Assembly: GCA_025936205.1 (NCBI GenBank)
Contig: JAICTU010000158.1
Location: 1-17,330 of the forward strand
DNA: 17,330 nt
Direction: 5' to 3'
Source of the DNA: Polyangiaceae bacterium
GTDB lineage: Bacteria > Myxococcota > Polyangia > Polyangiales > Polyangiaceae
The notes beneath the pieces are model-generated. The model saw nothing but the letters and a program-made list of their open reading frames with translations. It was not told the origin of the DNA and did not search any database. How positions within the stretch are numbered: the first letter of the stretch is position 1; each line of letters starts with the position of its first letter. Of the stretch, positions 7,557-17,330 are shown one piece after another. Made by a program: the position numbers and the translations under genes.

Positions 7557-10500
7557 GTGTTTCATCCTGCGGTGGAGAACTGGTTCCGGGCCACGCACGG
7601 CGAGCCTTCGGAACCGCAACGCCGGGGCTGGCCGCAGATCCGCGCCGGTCGCCACACGCTGATCGCCGCGCCCACGGGCTCCGGCAAGACACTCTCGGCC
7701 TTTCTCGCGGCCATCGATGATCTGGTGGTGAGCGGCCTCGCGGGCACACTGAAAGACGAGCTCCGCGTGCTCTACGTCTCGCCCTTGAAGGCGCTGAGCA
7801 ACGACATCGAAAAGAACCTGCGCCAGCCGCTGGCAGGCATCCGCGCGCAGCTCGAAGCGCTCGGCCTGCCGCCGATCGAGATCCGCTCGGTGGTGCGCAC
7901 GGGCGACACTTCCGCCGCGGATCGCAACCAGCTGCGCAAGTCGCCGCCACACATCCTGGTCACCACGCCCGAGTCGCTGTACATCCTGCTCACTAGCGAG
8001 GGTGGCCGGCGCGCCCTCGCGAGCGTGCGCACCGTGATCGTGGACGAGATCCACGCCCTGATCACCAACAAACGCGGCGCGCACCTGGCGCTGTCGCTGG
8101 AGCGGCTGTCCGCGCTCGCCGAGCAGCCGCTGGTGCGCATCGGCCTGAGCGCGACGCAGAAGCCAATCGAAGAAGTCGCACGCTTCCTGGTGGGCTCGGC
8201 GCCATCCCACGACACACAACCCCAGGATGAGCCCGCTGACGTCGCCATCGTCGACTGCGGCCACAAGCGCAAGATGCGGCTGAGCATCGAGCTGCCCGCC
8301 TCGCCGCTGGAGGCCGTGATGTCGGCCGAGGTCTGGGGCGAGGTGTACGACCGGATCGCGGAGCTGGTGCAACAGAACACGACCACGCTCGTGTTCGTCG
8401 GCAACCGCCGCCTCTCCGAGCGGCTGTGCGCACAACTCGCCGAGCGCGTCGGAGAGCAGCAGGTCGCGGCCCACCACGGCAGCCTCTCGAAGGAGACGCG
8501 GCTGGCAGCCGAGCAGAAGCTCAAGGCCGGGCAGCTCAAGGCACTGGTGGCCACGGCGTCGCTGGAGCTCGGCATCGACATCGGAGCCGTGGATCTGGTG
8601 TGCCAGATCGGCTCGACGCGCTCGATCGCACGGCTGCTCCAGCGCGTCGGCCGCGCCGGTCACCAGCTGGGCGGCACGCCTGACGGCAAGCTCTTTCCCC
8701 TGAGCCGCAACGATCTGGTCGAGTGCAGCGCACTGCTGGACAGCGTGACGCGCGGCGAGCTGGACGCGGTGGTCGTGCCGCCCGCTCCGCTCGACATCCT
8801 GGCGCAGCAGGTCGTGGCCATGGCCGCCTGCGAGAGCTGCGACGAGGACGCGTTGTTCGCGCGCGTGCGCCGCGCGTATCCCTATCGCGAGCTGCCGCGC
8901 GAGCGCTTCGAGGCCGTGCTGAGCATGCTGGCGGACGGCTACAACACCAGTCGCGGGCGGCGCAGCGCGCTGATCCGGCGCGACGCCGTGACCCGGCAGA
9001 TCCAGGGCCGCAAGGCTGCCCGGCTGGTGGCGCTGACCAACGGCGGCGCCATCCCCGACAACACCGACTACCGCGTGGTGCTGGAGCCCGAGAACACCCA
9101 CGTCGGCAGCGTCGGGGAAGACTTCGCGATCGAGAGCATGGGTGGCGACATCTTCCAGCTCGGCAATGCCTCCTGGCGCATCCTGAAGGTGGAGCCGGGG
9201 CTGGTGCGCGTGGCGGACGCGCAGGGTCAGCCCCCCACGATCCCGTTCTGGCTCGGCGAAGGGCCCGCGCGCAGCGACGAGCTTTCCATCAGCGTCTCGC
9301 GCCTGCGCAACGAGCTCGCCGAGCGGCTCGAAGACGAGAACGCCGACGGCAGCTCGCTCGCGAGCGCCCTGCGCTGGCTGATCGAGGAGCGCCACTTTTC
9401 CGAGCCCGCTGCGCAGCAGCTGCTCGACTATCTCGCCGCCGCGCGGCGCACGCTGGGCACGTTGCCGACGCAGCGGCGCGTGGTGATGGAGCGCTTCTTC
9501 GACGAGGCGCAGAACACGCACCTGGTCATTCACTCCAGCTTCGGGGCGCGCGTGAACCGCGCCTGGGGCCTCGCCCTGCGCAAGCGCTTTTGCAGGACCT
9601 TCAACTTCGAGCTGCAGGCGGCGGCCACCGAGGATGCCATCATCCTGTCGCTGGGCCCGACGCACAGCTTCGAGCTGTGCACCGTTGGCGGCTTCTTGAA
9701 GAGTGCGACCGCGGAGAGCGTGTTGATCCAGGCGCTGCTCGACGCGCCGATGTTCGAGATTCGCTGGCGCCACAACGCCACCCGCTCGCTGGCCACGCCG
9801 CGCTTTCAGTCCGGCAGGAAGGTGCCGGCCACGCTGGTGCGCATCCGAGCCAACGATCTGCTCGCCACGGCCTTTCCCGATCAGCAGGCATGCCTCGAGA
9901 ACCTGCCCGGCGAGCGCGAGATCCCCGATCACCCGCTGGTCTGGCAGACGATCCAGGATTGTCTGACGGAAGCGATGGATTGTGGGGCATTCCTGGAGGT
10001 ACTCCGGCGCATCGAACGGGGTGAGATCGAAGTCTGCTATCGGGATTTGACCGAGCCCTCTCCCCTCGCCCACGAGATCTTGAACGCGAACCCGTATGCG
10101 TTCCTCGACCCGGCGCCGCTGGAAGAGCGCCGCACCCAGGCGGTGATGACCCGGCGCTTCTTCGACCCGAAGAGCGCGCGCGATCTCGGCCAGCTCGACG
10201 GGGACGCGATCGAGCGCGTGCGGCGCGAGGCCTGGCCCAGCTTCGAGAACGCTGACGAGCTGAGTGATGCCCTCTATCTGTGTGGCTTCTACGTCCAGCG
10301 TGAGCTCTCGGAGCGGCTCGCGCACACGGAGACCACGCCCGCGCAGGCCGCCGCGCTGTTCGATCAGCTGCTGCAACAGGGCCGCGCCACGCGCCTGGTG
10401 CTGCCGTCGGGCGAGGTATTATGGGCCGCCGCCGAGCGGCTCGCGCAGCTGCTGGCGGCGTGCCCCGGCGCGCAGCCGCGCCCCGAGCTCAGCCTGCCCG

Positions 10501-11999
10501 CGGCGCTGAGCGCCAGCGTCGAGCCCGAGACCGCGTGGCGCGAGCTGATGCGCGCGCGGCTCGAATCACTGGGCCCGGTCACACTGCGCGCCCTGGCGGC
10601 GCCGCTCGCCGCGCCGGGCAGCGACGCGGCGCTCCGGCACGCCGAGCAAGCGCTGCTGGCGCTGGAGACGCAGGGCTCCGCGATGATGGGCCGCTTCACT
10701 CCCGGTTGCCAGGAGCCGGAGTGGTGTGTCCGCGGGCTCCTGGCTCGCATCCATCGCTACACGCTCGAGCGCCTGCGGCGCGAGATCGAGCCGGTCACGA
10801 CCGCGGTGTTCGTGCGCTTCCTGTTCGACTGGCAAGGCGTGTCCTCCGATCACCGCCAGCTCGGGCAAGCCTCATTGCCCGCCGTGCTGGCGCAGCTGGA
10901 AGGCTTCGAAGCCTCCGCCGGCAGCTGGGAGTCTGCGCTCCTGCCGGCGCGCGTCGGCGATTACGATCCGGCGTGGCTCGACGGCTTGTGCCTGTCGGGG
11001 CAGCTGCTGTGGGGTCGCGCGGAGCTGCCCATGAACGCCAAGGCGCTGCGCTCGCTCGCGACCACGCCGATCGTGCTCGCCCAGCGCGAAAACTGGTCCT
11101 GGATCGTCGGTGCTCGCTTGCCCGCCGCGGCGGAGGCGCCCGCGCCGGAGCTCTCGGCGCCGGGCCGGCAGATCGAAGAGCAGCTGCGGCGCGGGCCGCG
11201 CTTCTTTCATGATCTACGGCGCAGCGTGGCGACCAGCAGCGAGCTGGAACTGGCGCTCTCGGAGCTGGTCGCCGCCGGCCGCATCAGCGCCGACAGCTTC
11301 AGCGGCATGCGCGGGCTGTTGCCCAGCAAGAAATCGGGCGCGGCGCGCCGCCAGCGCGCGCAGCGCCGCGCCCCCGCCGGTCTGGAGAGCGCGGGCCGCT
11401 GGTCGCTGCTCGAAGCGCTGGAACCGCCGCCGGAAGATCAGCTGGAGCGCTGGGCGCGCTTGCTGCTCAGGCGCTACGGCGTGGTGTTTCGCGCGCTGCT
11501 CGATCGCGAAAACGCGCCGCCCTGGCGCGACCTGTTGCGAGAATATCGCCGCCTGGAAGCGCGCGGCGAGGTCCGCGGCGGGCGTTTCGTGCAACGCCAC
11601 GCCGGCGAACAGTTCGCGCTGCCGGAGGCCGTCCCGCTCTTGCGCAGCTTGCGCCGCGCGGCGCCGGACGGACGAGAAGTGTGCCTGAGCGCTTGCGATC
11701 CCTTGAATCTGCTGGGCACGTTGTTGCCCGGCGAGCGTGTGACCGCAACGCCGAGCAATTCCTTGTTGTTCCGCGCTGGGCTGGCGATCGCGGCGCTGGA
11801 GGGCGGCAAGGTACGGATCTTCGAGGAGGTCGACGAGGCTGCGGCCTCCAGCATCGGAGATCGCCTACGACGTGGCCCGGCCTCCGCTGAGGCCCACGGA
11901 GAAGCGCCACTTGCCGCGCGCGGGCGGCGTGAGGCGCGGCGACCGGAGGCGGCGTTGCCCGCCAGCCTGCTCCGGCTTGGTTCTCGCCGCGCTTCGTGA
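7557..11999 (+). CDS. lhr: Lhr-type ATP-dependent superfamily 2 helicase with Lhr C-terminal region
   Basis: Large helicase-related protein of 1480 residues, close to the length usual for full Lhr. Lhr enzymes are 3'-to-5' ssDNA translocases that unwind RNA:DNA and DNA duplexes and act in DNA repair. Two RecA domains are clear: Q-motif region EPQRRGWPQI (19-28), Walker A APTGSGKT (38-45), DEIH box (163-166), SAT (198-200), and motif VI QRVGRAGH (362-369). The Lhr winged-helix and beta-barrel core follows (NTHVGSVGEDFAIESMGGD near residue 512, then a SFGARVNRAWGLALRKRF stretch near 660). The remaining 700 residues are the Lhr C-terminal tandem winged-helix region ending near DPLNLLGTLLPGE. The start is GTG at 7557, after GGGT. 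The last 45 residues are Arg/Ala/Pro-rich and look unlike the rest, perhaps a variable tail or a late frameshift. The methionine synthase-like gene begins 12 bp after the stop. Confidence 0.95.
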   Translation: MFHPAVENWFRATHGEPSEPQRRGWPQIRAGRHTLIAAPTGSGKTLSAFLAAIDDLVVSGLAGTLKDELRVLYVSPLKALSNDIEKNLRQPLAGIRAQLEALGLPPIEIRSVVRTGDTSAADRNQLRKSPPHILVTTPESLYILLTSEGGRRALASVRTVIVDEIHALITNKRGAHLALSLERLSALAEQPLVRIGLSATQKPIEEVARFLVGSAPSHDTQPQDEPADVAIVDCGHKRKMRLSIELPASPLEAVMSAEVWGEVYDRIAELVQQNTTTLVFVGNRRLSERLCAQLAERVGEQQVAAHHGSLSKETRLAAEQKLKAGQLKALVATASLELGIDIGAVDLVCQIGSTRSIARLLQRVGRAGHQLGGTPDGKLFPLSRNDLVECSALLDSVTRGELDAVVVPPAPLDILAQQVVAMAACESCDEDALFARVRRAYPYRELPRERFEAVLSMLADGYNTSRGRRSALIRRDAVTRQIQGRKAARLVALTNGGAIPDNTDYRVVLEPENTHVGSVGEDFAIESMGGDIFQLGNASWRILKVEPGLVRVADAQGQPPTIPFWLGEGPARSDELSISVSRLRNELAERLEDENADGSSLASALRWLIEERHFSEPAAQQLLDYLAAARRTLGTLPTQRRVVMERFFDEAQNTHLVIHSSFGARVNRAWGLALRKRFCRTFNFELQAAATEDAIILSLGPTHSFELCTVGGFLKSATAESVLIQALLDAPMFEIRWRHNATRSLATPRFQSGRKVPATLVRIRANDLLATAFPDQQACLENLPGEREIPDHPLVWQTIQDCLTEAMDCGAFLEVLRRIERGEIEVCYRDLTEPSPLAHEILNANPYAFLDPAPLEERRTQAVMTRRFFDPKSARDLGQLDGDAIERVRREAWPSFENADELSDALYLCGFYVQRELSERLAHTETTPAQAAALFDQLLQQGRATRLVLPSGEVLWAAAERLAQLLAACPGAQPRPELSLPAALSASVEPETAWRELMRARLESLGPVTLRALAAPLAAPGSDAALRHAEQALLALETQGSAMMGRFTPGCQEPEWCVRGLLARIHRYTLERLRREIEPVTTAVFVRFLFDWQGVSSDHRQLGQASLPAVLAQLEGFEASAGSWESALLPARVGDYDPAWLDGLCLSGQLLWGRAELPMNAKALRSLATTPIVLAQRENWSWIVGARLPAAAEAPAPELSAPGRQIEEQLRRGPRFFHDLRRSVATSSELELALSELVAAGRISADSFSGMRGLLPSKKSGAARRQRAQRRAPAGLESAGRWSLLEALEPPPEDQLERWARLLLRRYGVVFRALLDRENAPPWRDLLREYRRLEARGEVRGGRFVQRHAGEQFALPEAVPLLRSLRRAAPDGREVCLSACDPLNLLGTLLPGERVTATPSNSLLFRAGLAIAALEGGKVRIFEEVDEAAASSIGDRLRRGPASAEAHGEAPLAARGRREARRPEAALPASLLRLGSRRAS

Positions 12000-13040: not shown

Positions 13041-14258
13041 TCAATTGCGGCAGGGCACCGCTTTCGGAATGTTCTCCATGACGCAGACCGGGAACGACAC
13101 CTGGTCGACGGAGGCGGAAAAGAAATTGCCGTTGCCCGGGTTGTAGCGCCAGTCGCCGGGCGTAGAACAGTCCGGACAGGACGAGGTGGTATGGAAGCTG
13201 CTGCAGAGCATCGCGTCGGGGCGGCAGTAAGAGTTGCCCGGCAGGTTGGGGCCCATCCCGAACTGACACGATGAGCAATCCTCGTCGAGACCGCAGCTCG
13301 AGCTCAGGCAGCTCGAGTCGCTCAGGCGGCAGCTGCCTCCGGGAGCGGTATTCGCGCAGCCGCCCGCGAGCGAGCGGGCCTCGTCGATCGTGGGCAGGCG
13401 CCAATCAGACAGCCCGACCACACTGAAGTTGGCACAGAAATCGGCTGCCTCGGCCAGCGTCACCGTGCTGTCCGTACGCATTACCCAGCCGAGCGATGTA
13501 CCGAGATCGTAGTGAAACCCGCCGAAGGTCTCGTAAAAGATCCAGCCTTGTCCGTCGCCCAGATCGCGCCAGTGCAGACAGCCCTGGAATTCGCCGCTCT
13601 GGAAGTCGGTGGTCGACGGATCCGCATCGGCACAGCCGGCGTTGGTGATCACCTGTCCGCAGGCGACCCCGGCGTCGCCGCCTGCCCCCGCATCCCCGGA
13701 GCCGCCGCTGCTCCCGCTGTTCTCGCAGAAGCCTGCTCCGGAGCAGGTGCAATCGGGCGGAGGACTCTCGGTGCTGCAGACGCGCCGGCAGGCCGTGCTC
13801 TCGCCATTGGGCAGCGGATTGCCATAGCCCACGCAAATGAGCCCCGCGCCGCACTCGTCGCCGTTCGGGCAGGGCTCTCCGTCCGCCGCGGCGCTCACGC
13901 TGGCGTCGCCGGCATCCAGGCCTGAGTCCGAGCCGGCGTCGGTGGCGTCGCCGGGGTTCCCGCCTGTACCGCCCTGACTCACGCTGCCGGAAGCGCCCGC
14001 GGTACCGTCACCGCTCGAGCCGCCGTCGGTTGCGCCACCGCTGCTCGAGCCACCGTCCGTTGCACCAGCGCTGCTCGAGCCGCCGTCCGTTGCGGCACCG
14101 CCATTCGCGGCGGCGCTCGCACCGCCATTGCTCTCAGGCCCAGCGCCCGCTGCGGCGCTGCCGGCGTGGCCTACCCCCTCACCCGTATCAGAACAACTGA
14201 CGGCCAGCAAAAATGCCGCAAAACTCGCCGAAACCGCTCGCCGCAGACTCTGCCCCAT
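13041..14258 (-). CDS. DUF1566 (Lcl-type) domain lipoprotein with Gly/Ser/Thr/Asp-rich spacer
   Basis: Exported cell-surface lipoprotein of 405 residues. The signal peptide MGQSLRRAVSASFAAFLLAV is followed by SC with lipidated Cys22 (LAVSC). Residues 25-125 are a Gly/Ala/Ser/Thr/Asp-rich spacer that includes three 10-residue repeats of the GATDGGSSSG type. A Cys-rich segment with CPNGDECGAGLICVG (about 130-145) resembles small disulfide modules seen in myxobacterial lipoproteins. The C-terminal 200 residues form a DUF1566 domain (GLSDWRLPTIDEARSL near 290-305), a C-type-lectin-like fold of unknown ligand. The domain has many extra Cys (CLSSSCGLDEDCSSC). The ATG at 14258 is preferred over the in-frame GTG at 14270. 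The 3' end is 9 bp from the convergent methionine synthase gene. Function unknown; the layout fits a surface adhesin or sensor. Confidence 0.85.
   Translation of the reverse strand: MGQSLRRAVSASFAAFLLAVSCSDTGEGVGHAGSAAAGAGPESNGGASAAANGGAATDGGSSSAGATDGGSSSGGATDGGSSGDGTAGASGSVSQGGTGGNPGDATDAGSDSGLDAGDASVSAAADGEPCPNGDECGAGLICVGYGNPLPNGESTACRRVCSTESPPPDCTCSGAGFCENSGSSGGSGDAGAGGDAGVACGQVITNAGCADADPSTTDFQSGEFQGCLHWRDLGDGQGWIFYETFGGFHYDLGTSLGWVMRTDSTVTLAEAADFCANFSVVGLSDWRLPTIDEARSLAGGCANTAPGGSCRLSDSSCLSSSCGLDEDCSSCQFGMGPNLPGNSYCRPDAMLCSSFHTTSSCPDCSTPGDWRYNPGNGNFFSASVDQVSFPVCVMENIPKAVPCRN
14011..14100. repeat. Three tandem 30-bp coding repeats
   Basis: Units 14011-14040, 14041-14070 and 14071-14100 share the core CTCGAGCCRCCGTCSGTTGC. 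They encode decapeptides of the form GATDGGSSSG in the spacer of the DUF1566 lipoprotein. Copy number may vary by slippage. Confidence 0.8.
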
Positions 14259-14298
14259 CACTCCGTCCACTCGCTACGGCGGCTCGAGCTGCTCGCTT

Positions 14299-15393: not shown

Positions 15394-15774
15394 TCAACAG
15401 ACGACCACGCGCGGCCGCCGGCTGCCGCAGGCACGTAGTAAAGGTCGCAGATCGTCTGGGTCGCTAGTGTACAGTATGGTTCCCTCCCCCGCCGCGAGGA
15501 GGGCGACGTGGGCATCGCAAATATCTGCCGTGCGCGTGCGACCGCAGAGCACTCCTACGCTACGAGCAACAGGGTCGAAAGCACCGATCACACACTGTTC
15601 CAGGGCTTTCGAGAGCTGCGCCTGACGCAGCCCTCCGCGCCACGCCTGAGCCAGCGCCGTGCTCGGCACCTCGACATCCTCCCCATTCAAGGCAGCCAAC
15701 TTCAGCGCGGCCCACAGCTCGCGATCGTTCCGTTCCAGCGCGAGCAGCGCGCCCGCGTCCAGCACACGCCTCAC
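15394..15774 (-). CDS. PIN-domain ribonuclease toxin (VapC-like)
   Basis: PIN-domain endoribonuclease of 126 residues, the toxin of a type II VapBC-like pair. The acidic residues of the Mg site are visible: Asp6 in RVLDAGALLALER, Asp84 and Asp87 in TADICDAHVALLA, and Asp105 in YTSDPDDLRPLL. The block VPSTALAQAWRGGLRQAQL (37-55) is typical of a PIN subgroup common in actinobacteria and other high-GC bacteria; it has Gln43 where many VapC proteins carry a Glu. The start is GTG at 15774, whose last two bases overlap the TGA stop of the upstream antitoxin gene (GTGA). This fixes the start despite a longer open frame. It converges with hepT over a 142-bp gap. The RNA target is unknown. Confidence 0.87.
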   Translation of the reverse strand: MRRVLDAGALLALERNDRELWAALKLAALNGEDVEVPSTALAQAWRGGLRQAQLSKALEQCVIGAFDPVARSVGVLCGRTRTADICDAHVALLAAGEGTILYTSDPDDLRPLLRACGSRRPRVVVC

Positions 15775-16028
15775 GGGCGGCGCCGCCTCCCTGTCGACTT
15801 TCGGGTTGGCCTGGGGAGCGCCTTCTCGGCCGCGGACTGCAGCTCCGCGCTGGTAATTTCGCCATGCTCGGCCTCCCACTCTTGGATGACACGAAGCAAC
15901 CCCTGAGCCCGTAACTTCCGGCGGGCGGCGTCGGCAAGCCAAGCAGACGTTGGTTCGGCTCCGGCGGCTTTACGGACGGCGCGCGCGAGCTCCGGATCGA
16001 AGGAGACTGCGAATCTAGCGACAGTCAT
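15771..16028 (-). CDS. Ribbon-helix-helix antitoxin of the PIN toxin (VapB-like)
   Basis: Small basic protein of 85 residues that should bind both its own promoter and the PIN toxin. The N-terminal segment ARFAVSFDPELARAVRKAA followed by SAWLADAARRKL (4-39) has the strand-helix-helix pattern of CopG/RHH DNA-binding antitoxins. The acidic helix EWEAEHGEITSAELQSAAE (49-67) is the likely toxin-binding part. It ends in an Arg-rich tail (TGRRRRP). The ATG at 16028 is chosen because a strong promoter ends 6 nt upstream and an inverted repeat is centred on this codon; the upstream in-frame ATG (16070) lies before the -35 box. The stop overlaps the toxin start, so the two are translated together. Confidence 0.85.
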   Translation of the reverse strand: MTVARFAVSFDPELARAVRKAAGAEPTSAWLADAARRKLRAQGLLRVIQEWEAEHGEITSAELQSAAEKALPRPTRKSTGRRRRP

Positions 16029-16211: not shown

Positions 16212-16232
16212 CCGGGGTGGGTCAACCCCCGG
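16212..16232. terminator. Hairpin spanning the csb2 stop codon
   Basis: CCGGGGT (16212-16218) pairs with ACCCCCGG (16225-16232, one bulged C); the csb2 stop codon lies in the loop. It may end the cas transcript. No U-tract is seen. Confidence 0.3.
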
Positions 16233-17330
16233 AGCCGCTCTCCCGCCTTGGCGGCGCTCTGTCAGGCCACTTCCTCAGCAATCCACCCCCGAGCATGCGG
16301 CTGCGCCCAAGCAAGATAGGGCCGGCCACATCCACGGCAAAGCTCAGCTCGAGCGCCGCGAAAATGCCGGTCCCTTTCACGACACTCGTCGAGAGCACAT
16401 CAACATGCGGCACCGGCAATTTCTGCCGCGCGCACGCTGCCTTGACGTCATTGACGATCAGCGCACCCAGATCACGGTCGTGGTCATGGCGATCGACGAG
16501 GTAGTCGTTGACGGTGCGCCAGCGTCGGCCGCTTGCGAACAACACGTCGTCATCATCAAGCGCAGCGCGGCGAAGCATGAGTCGTCCGCCGGCGCCCGCC
16601 TTCAACTCTTGCATCGTCGAGAACGCTGCGATTACGTCATCCCGGTGCTCAGAACGGTCTCCCATGCTGAGCATGGGAACGAGCGCAAGCAACCGTTGGC
16701 GCTCGAGGTCGGCGACCAGGCGCAGGCGGCTGCGGTCGTCTCGCACGGTCTCGCCGTTCGGCAGATGGCCCGTGAGCCACGCCGGCAGCGCCTTGTTGCC
16801 GAGGCGCTCTTGTGTGCGAGCCATGAGCGCACGTCGAAGCGCATCGGCGATGCCCGTCGATGACGCGCCCTTCTCGAGCCCTGCGTCGATGCGCAGCACG
16901 AGCACCTCGTCGCCGCCGACGCGCCTCGTGGTCGCTTCGTGCAGAGGTGGCGCCATCACGCCCAAGCCGGCGAAGCGCCCGTCACCAATTGCGATAGGAC
17001 CACTCACGGGCTGCGCGAAGGTGACACGCACGTGCCACGCCCTCTCCTTCTCGAAGCGCGTGTCTTTGGCGAAGAGCTCGGCGCGCTTGCCCCGCTTCCC
17101 CCAAGGCTCCCGCTGCACCTCGATTTGCACCGGCACGCCCTTCACCTCCGCCTGCCGCAGCGCCTGCAGCACCGCTTGCCGCGCCTGCCGCTCTTCTTGC
17201 TGACGCTCATCCGCGTTCTTCGTCTCGCGCGTCGTCGGTTCGAGGCGACGACGTCGTGTCAAAATCGCGGGCGTCACCGTCTGCCACGTCGCCGATGCCT
17301 GAGTGTAGCGCTGCCACATCTCCGCATCCC
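16222..17330 (-). CDS. csb2: Type I-G (I-U) CRISPR-associated Csb2 (Cas5/Cas6-like), 5' end beyond the window, tandem C-terminal unit
   Basis: Csb2 is the Cas5-Cas6 fusion of type I-G (GSU0054) systems, a Cascade subunit involved in crRNA processing and binding. The visible frame is open to the right edge, so the N-terminal Cas5 part is missing. Numbering from the Met at 17319: W-x-TVTP (12-17), KGVPVQIEVQ (60-69), HVRVTFAQPV (96-105) and the glycine loop GPIAIGDGRFAGLG (107-120) form the usual end of Csb2. Instead of stopping, the protein runs on for 245 residues. These again show Csb2-like steps: ALRRALMARTQ (160-170), LTGHLPNGE (182-190), WRTVNDYLVDRH (267-278), QKLPVPHVDVL (299-309) and a second loop GPILLGRSRMLGGGLL (333-348). 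The His-rich motif expected after SGH is lost (DDRSRLRL). So the protein may hold a tandem, degenerate second unit. The other cas genes should lie to the right. Family assignment is from motif memory. Confidence 0.75.
   Translation of the reverse strand, partial: DAEMWQRYTQASATWQTVTPAILTRRRRLEPTTRETKNADERQQEERQARQAVLQALRQAEVKGVPVQIEVQREPWGKRGKRAELFAKDTRFEKERAWHVRVTFAQPVSGPIAIGDGRFAGLGVMAPPLHEATTRRVGGDEVLVLRIDAGLEKGASSTGIADALRRALMARTQERLGNKALPAWLTGHLPNGETVRDDRSRLRLVADLERQRLLALVPMLSMGDRSEHRDDVIAAFSTMQELKAGAGGRLMLRRAALDDDDVLFASGRRWRTVNDYLVDRHDHDRDLGALIVNDVKAACARQKLPVPHVDVLSTSVVKGTGIFAALELSFAVDVAGPILLGRSRMLGGGLLRKWPDRAPPRRESGSGG

Follow-up and report, generated by a model that had tools for sequence, protein, structure and literature searches.

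A three-part Csb2 of probable fusion origin at a myxobacterial contig end: two Cas6-like units, the second altered in the clade of the window

Introduction

A csb2 gene at the end of a Polyangiaceae contig most likely encodes a Csb2 built by gene fusion, composed of a Cas5 part, an altered Cas6 unit and a further Cas6 unit. The window, meaning the whole stretch of 17,330 nucleotides that was analysed, ends inside this gene and holds its 3' part. It is reasonably probable that the following explanation is right as a whole: the gene is a long-form csb2 from a type I-G (Cas8g2) CRISPR system, its three-part product arose by fusion, and its second Cas6-like unit is the cutter in most of the family and a holder of RNA in the clade of the window.

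Among type I systems, I-G is the one understood least, according to the paper on the single characterised I-G effector, that of Thioalkalivibrio sulfidiphilus (Tsu) (PMC9638904). In the same paper, Tsu Csb2 belongs to a type I-G system with Cas8g/Csx17 and is described as a two-domain protein, one Cas5 fused to one Cas6 (PMC9638904). The papers drawn on are PMC9638904, PMC3150331, PMC10333696 and PMC11237760. A three-part architecture was not found in the open-licence literature searched; subscription papers and supplements may mention it.

The csb2 gene of the window

The gene is a minus-strand frame of 368 aa plus stop, whose 5' side is left open by the contig end. Its features are listed in window coordinates.

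16222..17328, minus strand: long-form csb2, 3' part, 368 aa and stop TGA at 16222-16224; 5' part beyond the contig end; relative P0123
16948..17328, minus strand: Cas6-like unit 1, C-terminal part, residues 1-127, up to glycine loop 1; TIGR02165 370-491/492, E 1.3e-24
17032..17037, minus strand: Trp-His ahead of glycine loop 1, residues 98-99; WH in 281/295 aligned rows
16960..16986, minus strand: glycine loop 1, GDGRFAGLG, residues 115-123; Arg-Phe replaces Ser/Cys/Ala-His of Csx17-linked Csb2
16273..16947, minus strand: linker and Cas6-like unit 2, residues 128-352
16765..16770, minus strand: Gly-His of unit 2, residues 187-188; GH in 295/295 rows
16726..16734, minus strand: Arg-Ser-Arg of unit 2, residues 199-201; x-x-His or His-x-His in most relatives
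16276..16308, minus strand: glycine loop 2, GRSRMLGGGLL, residues 341-351; Met in place of the His of 224/295 rows

In profile searches the protein scores 113.2 bits against TIGR02165 (curated cut-off 45) and 27.8 bits against PF09609 (cut-off 21), which places it in the Csb2 family, and the PADLOC Cas56g/Cas5g models match it too. The original prediction had read this frame, on this strand and at these coordinates, as a Csb2-like protein with two successive glycine-loop units, and each of these points is borne out: the motifs it quoted are present, and the two loops start 226 residues apart. The Cas5-like N-terminal domain would lie beyond the contig end, judging from a 91% identical relative, and the 5' end and operon of the gene are likewise presumed from its relatives.

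Elsewhere in the window, neither a further cas gene nor a CRISPR array was found, and a cas3 profile touched only an Lhr-like helicase. The large Lhr-type helicase is a 1480 aa frame at 7557-11999 on the plus strand, with DEAD, Helicase_C, DEAD_assoc and WH_Lhr domains. Two short stretches of minus-strand frames (15394-15777 and 15771-16028) are laid out like a toxin-antitoxin pair, and the scanned pieces of them had no Pfam match. Imperfect direct repeats with 30-base spacing (13907-14113) lie within the frame 13041-14270, which has a weak Lcl_C match.

Two Cas6-like units in one protein

Both halves of the fragment map to the same C-terminal region of the Csb2 profile. Residues 1-128 alone match TIGR02165 positions 370-491 of 492 (E 1.3e-24), the last quarter of the profile. 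Residues 129-368 alone match positions 259-490 (E 5e-10; 39.2 bits, just below the 45-bit cut-off) and positions 203-429 of 431 of PADLOC Cas56g PDLC01777 (E 9.6e-14). In a profile-profile comparison built on 36 relatives, unit 1 and unit 2 are homologous with a probability of 97.3% (E 1.6e-11), while the Cas5-like N-terminal part matched neither unit. The similarity of the two units is far beyond chance. In the five full-length relatives scanned, the first ~470-510 residues already cover the complete ordinary Csb2 profile (P0002 residues 3-472 match PDLC01410 positions 1-429/431), and the second unit follows after that. The protein carries two Cas6-like units, where the published Csb2 has a single Cas6 domain at its C-terminus. 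For residues 128-352, structure prediction gives a Cas6 fold with a glycine loop; in the structure search, a family absent from the list was not taken as absent. Sequence searches of the PDB found no Csb2 chain.

An appended second unit is what had been proposed from the sequence alone, together with the statement that Csb2 ends at the first loop, as single-unit proteins indeed do. The outcomes that would have spoken against it, halves that map to different, non-homologous parts of Csb2 or a second half without a RAMP fold, did not occur.

The contig end does cut the gene, and one could suspect an error of assembly or annotation, or a single-copy Csb2 misread as two units. Full-length, co-linear relatives on complete Cereibacter plasmids rule this out, and others occur in cultured Nannocystis exedens (DSM 71), Rhodanobacter sp. 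and Lamprocystis purpurea. The probability of an artefact is negligible.

Distribution of the long form

The closest relative, P0123 from a Polyangiaceae MAG, has 690 aa and matches 96% of the fragment at 91% identity. A protein search with the fragment gave 84 matches; 21 of them (P0123-P0143), 62-91% identical, make up the clade of the window. A tblastn search of plasmids found two from Cereibacter, and their Csb2 aligns co-linearly with 92% of the query (38.9% identity). This Csb2 (WP_181318582.1) has 695 aa and lies in the operon cas3-cas8c-cas7-csb2-cas4/1-cas2. When used as a query, it gave 1174 matches, and among the 120 listed all measure 695-747 aa except one row of 592 aa.

A scan of named genomes yielded 271 relatives, and in the best 80 of these 271 loci, a set that the long query biases toward long forms, 77 match through both units; of the other three, L071 is cut by a contig end and L079 and L083 stop after unit 1. 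These 80 loci come from many phyla and include some cultured strains, and the closest among them is a Polyangiaceae MAG (L005). With only the window protein as query, a scan of genomes gave 252 stretches, none confirmed, and a search of phage records gave no match.

Broader genome samples give another proportion, with single-unit Csb2 outnumbering the long form. Any Csb2 match was seen in 22/369 Gammaproteobacteria and 68/377 Myxococcota genomes, and a second unit in at least 4 of these 22 and at least 6 of these 68 (one of the six, G029, cut by a contig end); all of these counts are lower bounds, because at most four candidates per genome were scored. The long form is therefore a minority of all Csb2. 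It is present in many bacterial phyla and passes as ordinary Csb2: its database names, where given, are Csb2 or Cas5/Cas6. The profiles are 374-552 positions long and unit 2 matches their C-terminal half a second time, and thus none of them models unit 2 separately.

Operon and repeats

The cas8 search used profiles grown from the Cereibacter proteins and covered 82 loci, 80 from genomes plus two on plasmids. A Cas8g2-type cas8 was found in 75 of the 82, and contig ends cut six of the other seven. The locus L042 (4959-8473) has a long Csb2 with cas7, and no Cas8g2 or Cas3 match despite ~5 kb of upstream sequence. The original prediction had expected an unusual type I-G architecture; in the Cas8g2-type loci scanned, the long form is instead the usual one.

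Single-unit Csb2 frames were also examined in the sample loci L106-L161: 38 have no adjoining Cas8g2-type cas8, which is weak evidence of absence because the flanks are ~1.5 kb, and three have one (L114, L134, L161). L114 is cut by a contig end. L134 and L161 are Cas8g2-type loci with a single-unit Csb2 that is sister to unit 1 in the tree. The Csb2 of L161 keeps His at most motif places, and this locus possibly represents the state before fusion.

The closest relative has all of cas3g, cas8g2, csb1/cas7g, csb2, cas4g/cas1g and cas2, and NCBIfam names its proteins Cas3g, Cas8g2, Cas7g, Csb2, Cas4g/Cas1g and Cas2. Its cas4/1-cas2 part lies ~7 kb from cas3. No CRISPR array was found in this assembly. 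A single repeat-like sequence ending ATTGAAGC is located 3' of cas2 (L104:5970-6009). Arrays whose repeats end in TTGAAGC accompany 47 of the 82 loci, and in 43 of the 47 the repeat fold leaves 4 nt between the stem and the 8-nt handle.

Origin of the second unit

The alignment of 47 chosen unit sequences reveals two kinds of Csb2 Cas6 domain, CA and CB. Motifs of the CA type are HxHAH or HxHA, together with a His in the glycine loop (HFGLGLF). The CB type belongs to csb1-csb2-cas3 operons, for example those of Azotobacter and Rhodothermus; its motifs are GH, PHxA and PLPxVGHxHADG, and its loop carries Arg-Tyr/Phe. On the same contig as Csb2, a Csx17 match is present in 11/11 CA genomes, one of them (G387) a contig-edge piece under the cut-off. 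It was seen in 1/9 CB genomes (G708, beside a different Csb2) and in 0/5 genomes with a single-unit Cas8g2 or split Csb2. By alignment, unit 1 resembles CB with Arg at several His places, and unit 2 resembles CA.

The tree, calculated on 46 rows with the partial window unit 1 left out, divides unit 1, split unit 1, CB and the single-unit Cas8g2 Csb2 from unit 2, CA and the stand-alone genes with support 100/98. Constraining unit 1 and unit 2 to one clade is rejected (p-AU 0.002). The two units have separate ancestry; they are not each other's closest relatives, as tandem duplicates would be. In profile comparisons unit 1 scores best with CB (E 5.6e-23), and unit 2 is about equally close to CA (E 3e-22) and CB (E 4e-25), so that profile scores are a weaker guide to the origin of unit 2 than the tree.

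Relatives in which the two units are still separate genes were found. At L079:9977-12411, L083:9153-11550 and L109:719-3054, csb2 ends after unit 1 and a separate cas6-like gene comes next; the two genes overlap by ATGA in L079 and L109 and are 7 bases apart in L083. Further downstream is cas4/1, ~1.3 kb on in L083. These stand-alone genes share with unit 2 their side of the tree and their order after csb2; they differ in being genes of their own with HxH and loop His intact, whereas unit 2 is fused. The three loci look like the state before fusion, and unit 2 was most likely gained when the neighbouring downstream cas6-like gene fused to csb2.

A tandem duplication, with unit 2 as a diverged copy of unit 1, was the origin first suggested, and the 100/98 split and the p-AU of 0.002 speak against it. 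It could draw on the facts that both units match the same profile region and that their mutual homology is detectable. However, the units fall on opposite sides of the 100/98 branch and the one-clade tree is rejected, although long branches could bias that test, and the second unit is a separate gene in the split relatives. We regard duplication as quite improbable, and fusion as the preferred origin.

Which unit cuts

The histidine motifs were counted in 295 aligned rows with unit 2, which are protein plus locus rows and include 273 with a distinct unit 2. Within unit 2, GH is seen in 295/295 and the loop His in 224/295; the second His of HxH is seen in 269/295 (residue 201, replaced by Arg in the window clade, the window copy included). 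Unit 1 has GR in 250/295 and GH in 2/295, and mostly R-x-R where H-x-A is expected. Its loop has Arg-aromatic in 293/295 and Arg-Leu in 2/295. Unit 1 keeps WH in 281/295, and of the GHxH common to CB-type Csb2 it has the first His in 199/295, the second in 183/295 and both in 127/295. The second unit had been called degenerate in the original prediction. For the window copy and its clade, which lack the HxH and loop histidines of unit 2, this stands, and the HRHA-like histidines are indeed gone there (Arg and Met at the HxH and loop positions). Family-wide it does not hold, as unit 1 is the one without GH, HxA and loop His and unit 2 usually has them.

Among single-unit CA-type Csb2, the loop His is present in 11/12, at 485-543, and HxHA in 9/12, at 319-349 (protein or frame positions). 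The H503A variant of Tsu Csb2 does not cut (PMC9638904). From the 485-543 range, H503 would most likely be the loop His, by position arithmetic. Three rows with R260, R262 and H503 were considered as Tsu Csb2 and rejected as chance agreement: two are the same cut gene and none is Csx17-linked.

Unit 2 is the likely pre-crRNA cutter in most of the family, because it keeps HxH and the loop His, and the Tsu H503A change abolishes cutting. The three-part Csb2 would then consist of a Cas5-like N-terminal domain, a Cas6-like unit 1 without several histidines, which may serve as the scaffold that joins the Cas5 part to unit 2, and a unit 2 of predicted Cas6 fold, acquired when the directly downstream cas6-like gene fused to csb2. 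Unit 2 would be the pre-crRNA endonuclease, cutting 4 nt past the repeat hairpin to give the 8-nt handle, and it would remain bound to the hairpin once cut.

The loop His is absent from unit 2 in 71/295 rows, with several lineages having Tyr, Phe or Gln, and CB-type proteins are also without it; the cutting residue may therefore differ by lineage. In some CA-type Csb2, Gly-Arg or Gly-Cys stands in place of GH, hence the GH histidine is not the general catalyst. Since unit 1 keeps WH and part of GHxH, motifs that CB-type Csb2 also have, unit 1 may not be dead. It might still cut through a WH and GHxH site, with unit 2 as an RNA-holding add-on throughout the family. The WH in 281/295 rows and the partial GHxH agree with this, as do CB-type single-unit Csb2, which share these motifs and must cut alone if active. 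On the other hand, GH is kept in just 2/295, HxA is lost, GHxH is complete in 127/295, and it is the separate gene of the split systems that has intact HxH and loop His. A cutting unit 1 is improbable on this evidence, and cutting by unit 2 remains our preferred reading for most of the family.

The clade of the window

In the window clade, unit 2 has Arg for the HxH His, and its loop His is replaced by Met, Asn, Ile or Leu (the window has Arg and Met). The window copy thus has neither HxH nor the glycine-loop His, the pair that would mark a Cas6 endoribonuclease if H503 points to the catalytic residue. Outside the clade, both motifs are absent from unit 2 in three rows: P0170, L019 and L042. 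Unit 2 itself is present in 21/21 listed clade proteins, and mean identity in the 20 near-full-length ones is 0.72 for unit 2 and 0.76 for unit 1. For one pair, the window versus L005, dN/dS is well below 1 (0.28 for the unit 1 part, 0.30 for linker and unit 2). With its presence in all 21 proteins, an identity of 0.72 and a dN/dS of 0.30, unit 2 therefore looks unlike a decaying leftover. Most likely it would only hold the 3' hairpin of the crRNA in this clade, the cutting coming from elsewhere or from a rebuilt site.

A rebuilt site could rest on the kept histidines of GH (188) and RH (281), making unit 2 of the clade an active Cas6 with a shifted site. These are the sole invariant unit 2 histidines in 20 clade members, GH occurs in 295/295 family rows, and both the retention of unit 2 in 21/21 listed clade proteins and the dN/dS of 0.30 fit with activity. 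Catalytic residues also vary among Cas6 enzymes. Yet HxH and loop His are both lost, as outside the clade only in the three rows named above, and GH is replaced by Gly-Arg or Gly-Cys in some CA-type Csb2. A shifted site is conceivable, though we lean against it.

Cutting from elsewhere would mean that another Csb2 in the cell processes the clade's pre-crRNA and that the window-type protein only binds the product. A second Csb2, with a single unit, is encoded at C74:10132-11574 in the genome of the closest relative (G001). In L039 and L040, a separate, intact cas6-like gene adjoins a long Csb2 that has lost the loop His of its unit 2. Against such supply in trans, no other GSU0054-family locus was found in 10 of 15 genomes with a unit 2 lacking the loop His; the window clade is represented there by one genome, and MAGs are incomplete. 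We rate it as rather unlikely.

The single-unit Csb2 of G001 (L105) adjoins cas7 and cas3. In L039:9998-13220 and L040:5774-8996, the loop His of unit 2 is Asn and TRH is TRY, and the stand-alone neighbour has HxH and loop His, as if the function had moved back out to a separate gene.

Second Cas6 genes were counted in 50 of the 80 named loci, namely all 15 without the loop His plus 35 hand-picked, non-random ones. Another GSU0054-family locus (TIGR02165) is found in 5/15 genomes without the loop His versus 6/35 others, and a generic Cas6 (PF10040) in 1/15 versus 13/35. With these counts, loop-His loss coupled to a second Cas6 is unsupported as a rule.

It may even be, and we put this forward tentatively and at less than even chance, that neither Cas6 unit of the clade cuts. 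Cutting would first have passed to the fused Cas6 and then been lost in the myxobacterial branch, leaving a pure holder of the crRNA hairpin with guides cut by another enzyme, or a new cutting site.

Comparison with known systems

A Csb2 made of one Cas5 and one Cas6 seems an incomplete picture for the Cas8g2 branch: three parts are usual there, with the HxH and loop histidines kept in the second Cas6 unit. The three-part model predicts where crRNA is cut and held, and it offers a reason for the two length classes of Csb2. The route of the domain swap can be traced in living genomes, from a single unit to csb2 with a separate cas6 and on to the fusion. The window clade is a group in which crRNA processing probably works differently.

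Like the long form, Tsu Csb2 starts with a Cas5-like part and continues with a Cas6-fold domain, which the authors matched to Cas6b (4Z7K) (PMC9638904). The Tsu cut site, with 4 nt between the stem and an 8-nt handle, has the same geometry as 43/47 arrays of long-form loci (PMC9638904). They differ in that Tsu Csb2 has one Cas6 domain with the catalytic His H503, whereas the long form has two Cas6-like units, and the large subunit is Cas8g/Csx17 with Tsu Csb2 but Cas8g2 in the long-form relatives (PMC9638904). Unit 2 of the window clade is without the presumed catalytic His that Tsu Csb2 has (PMC9638904). The family profiles, cas5_6_GSU0054 (TIGR02165, PF09609) and PADLOC Cas56g/Cas5g, correspond in full to the first ~470-510 residues of the five long forms and differ from them in having no separate part for unit 2. 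Cas6b (4Z7K), Csf5 (6H9H) and Pyrococcus furiosus Cas6 (3I4H) share 9-16% identity and are separate proteins.
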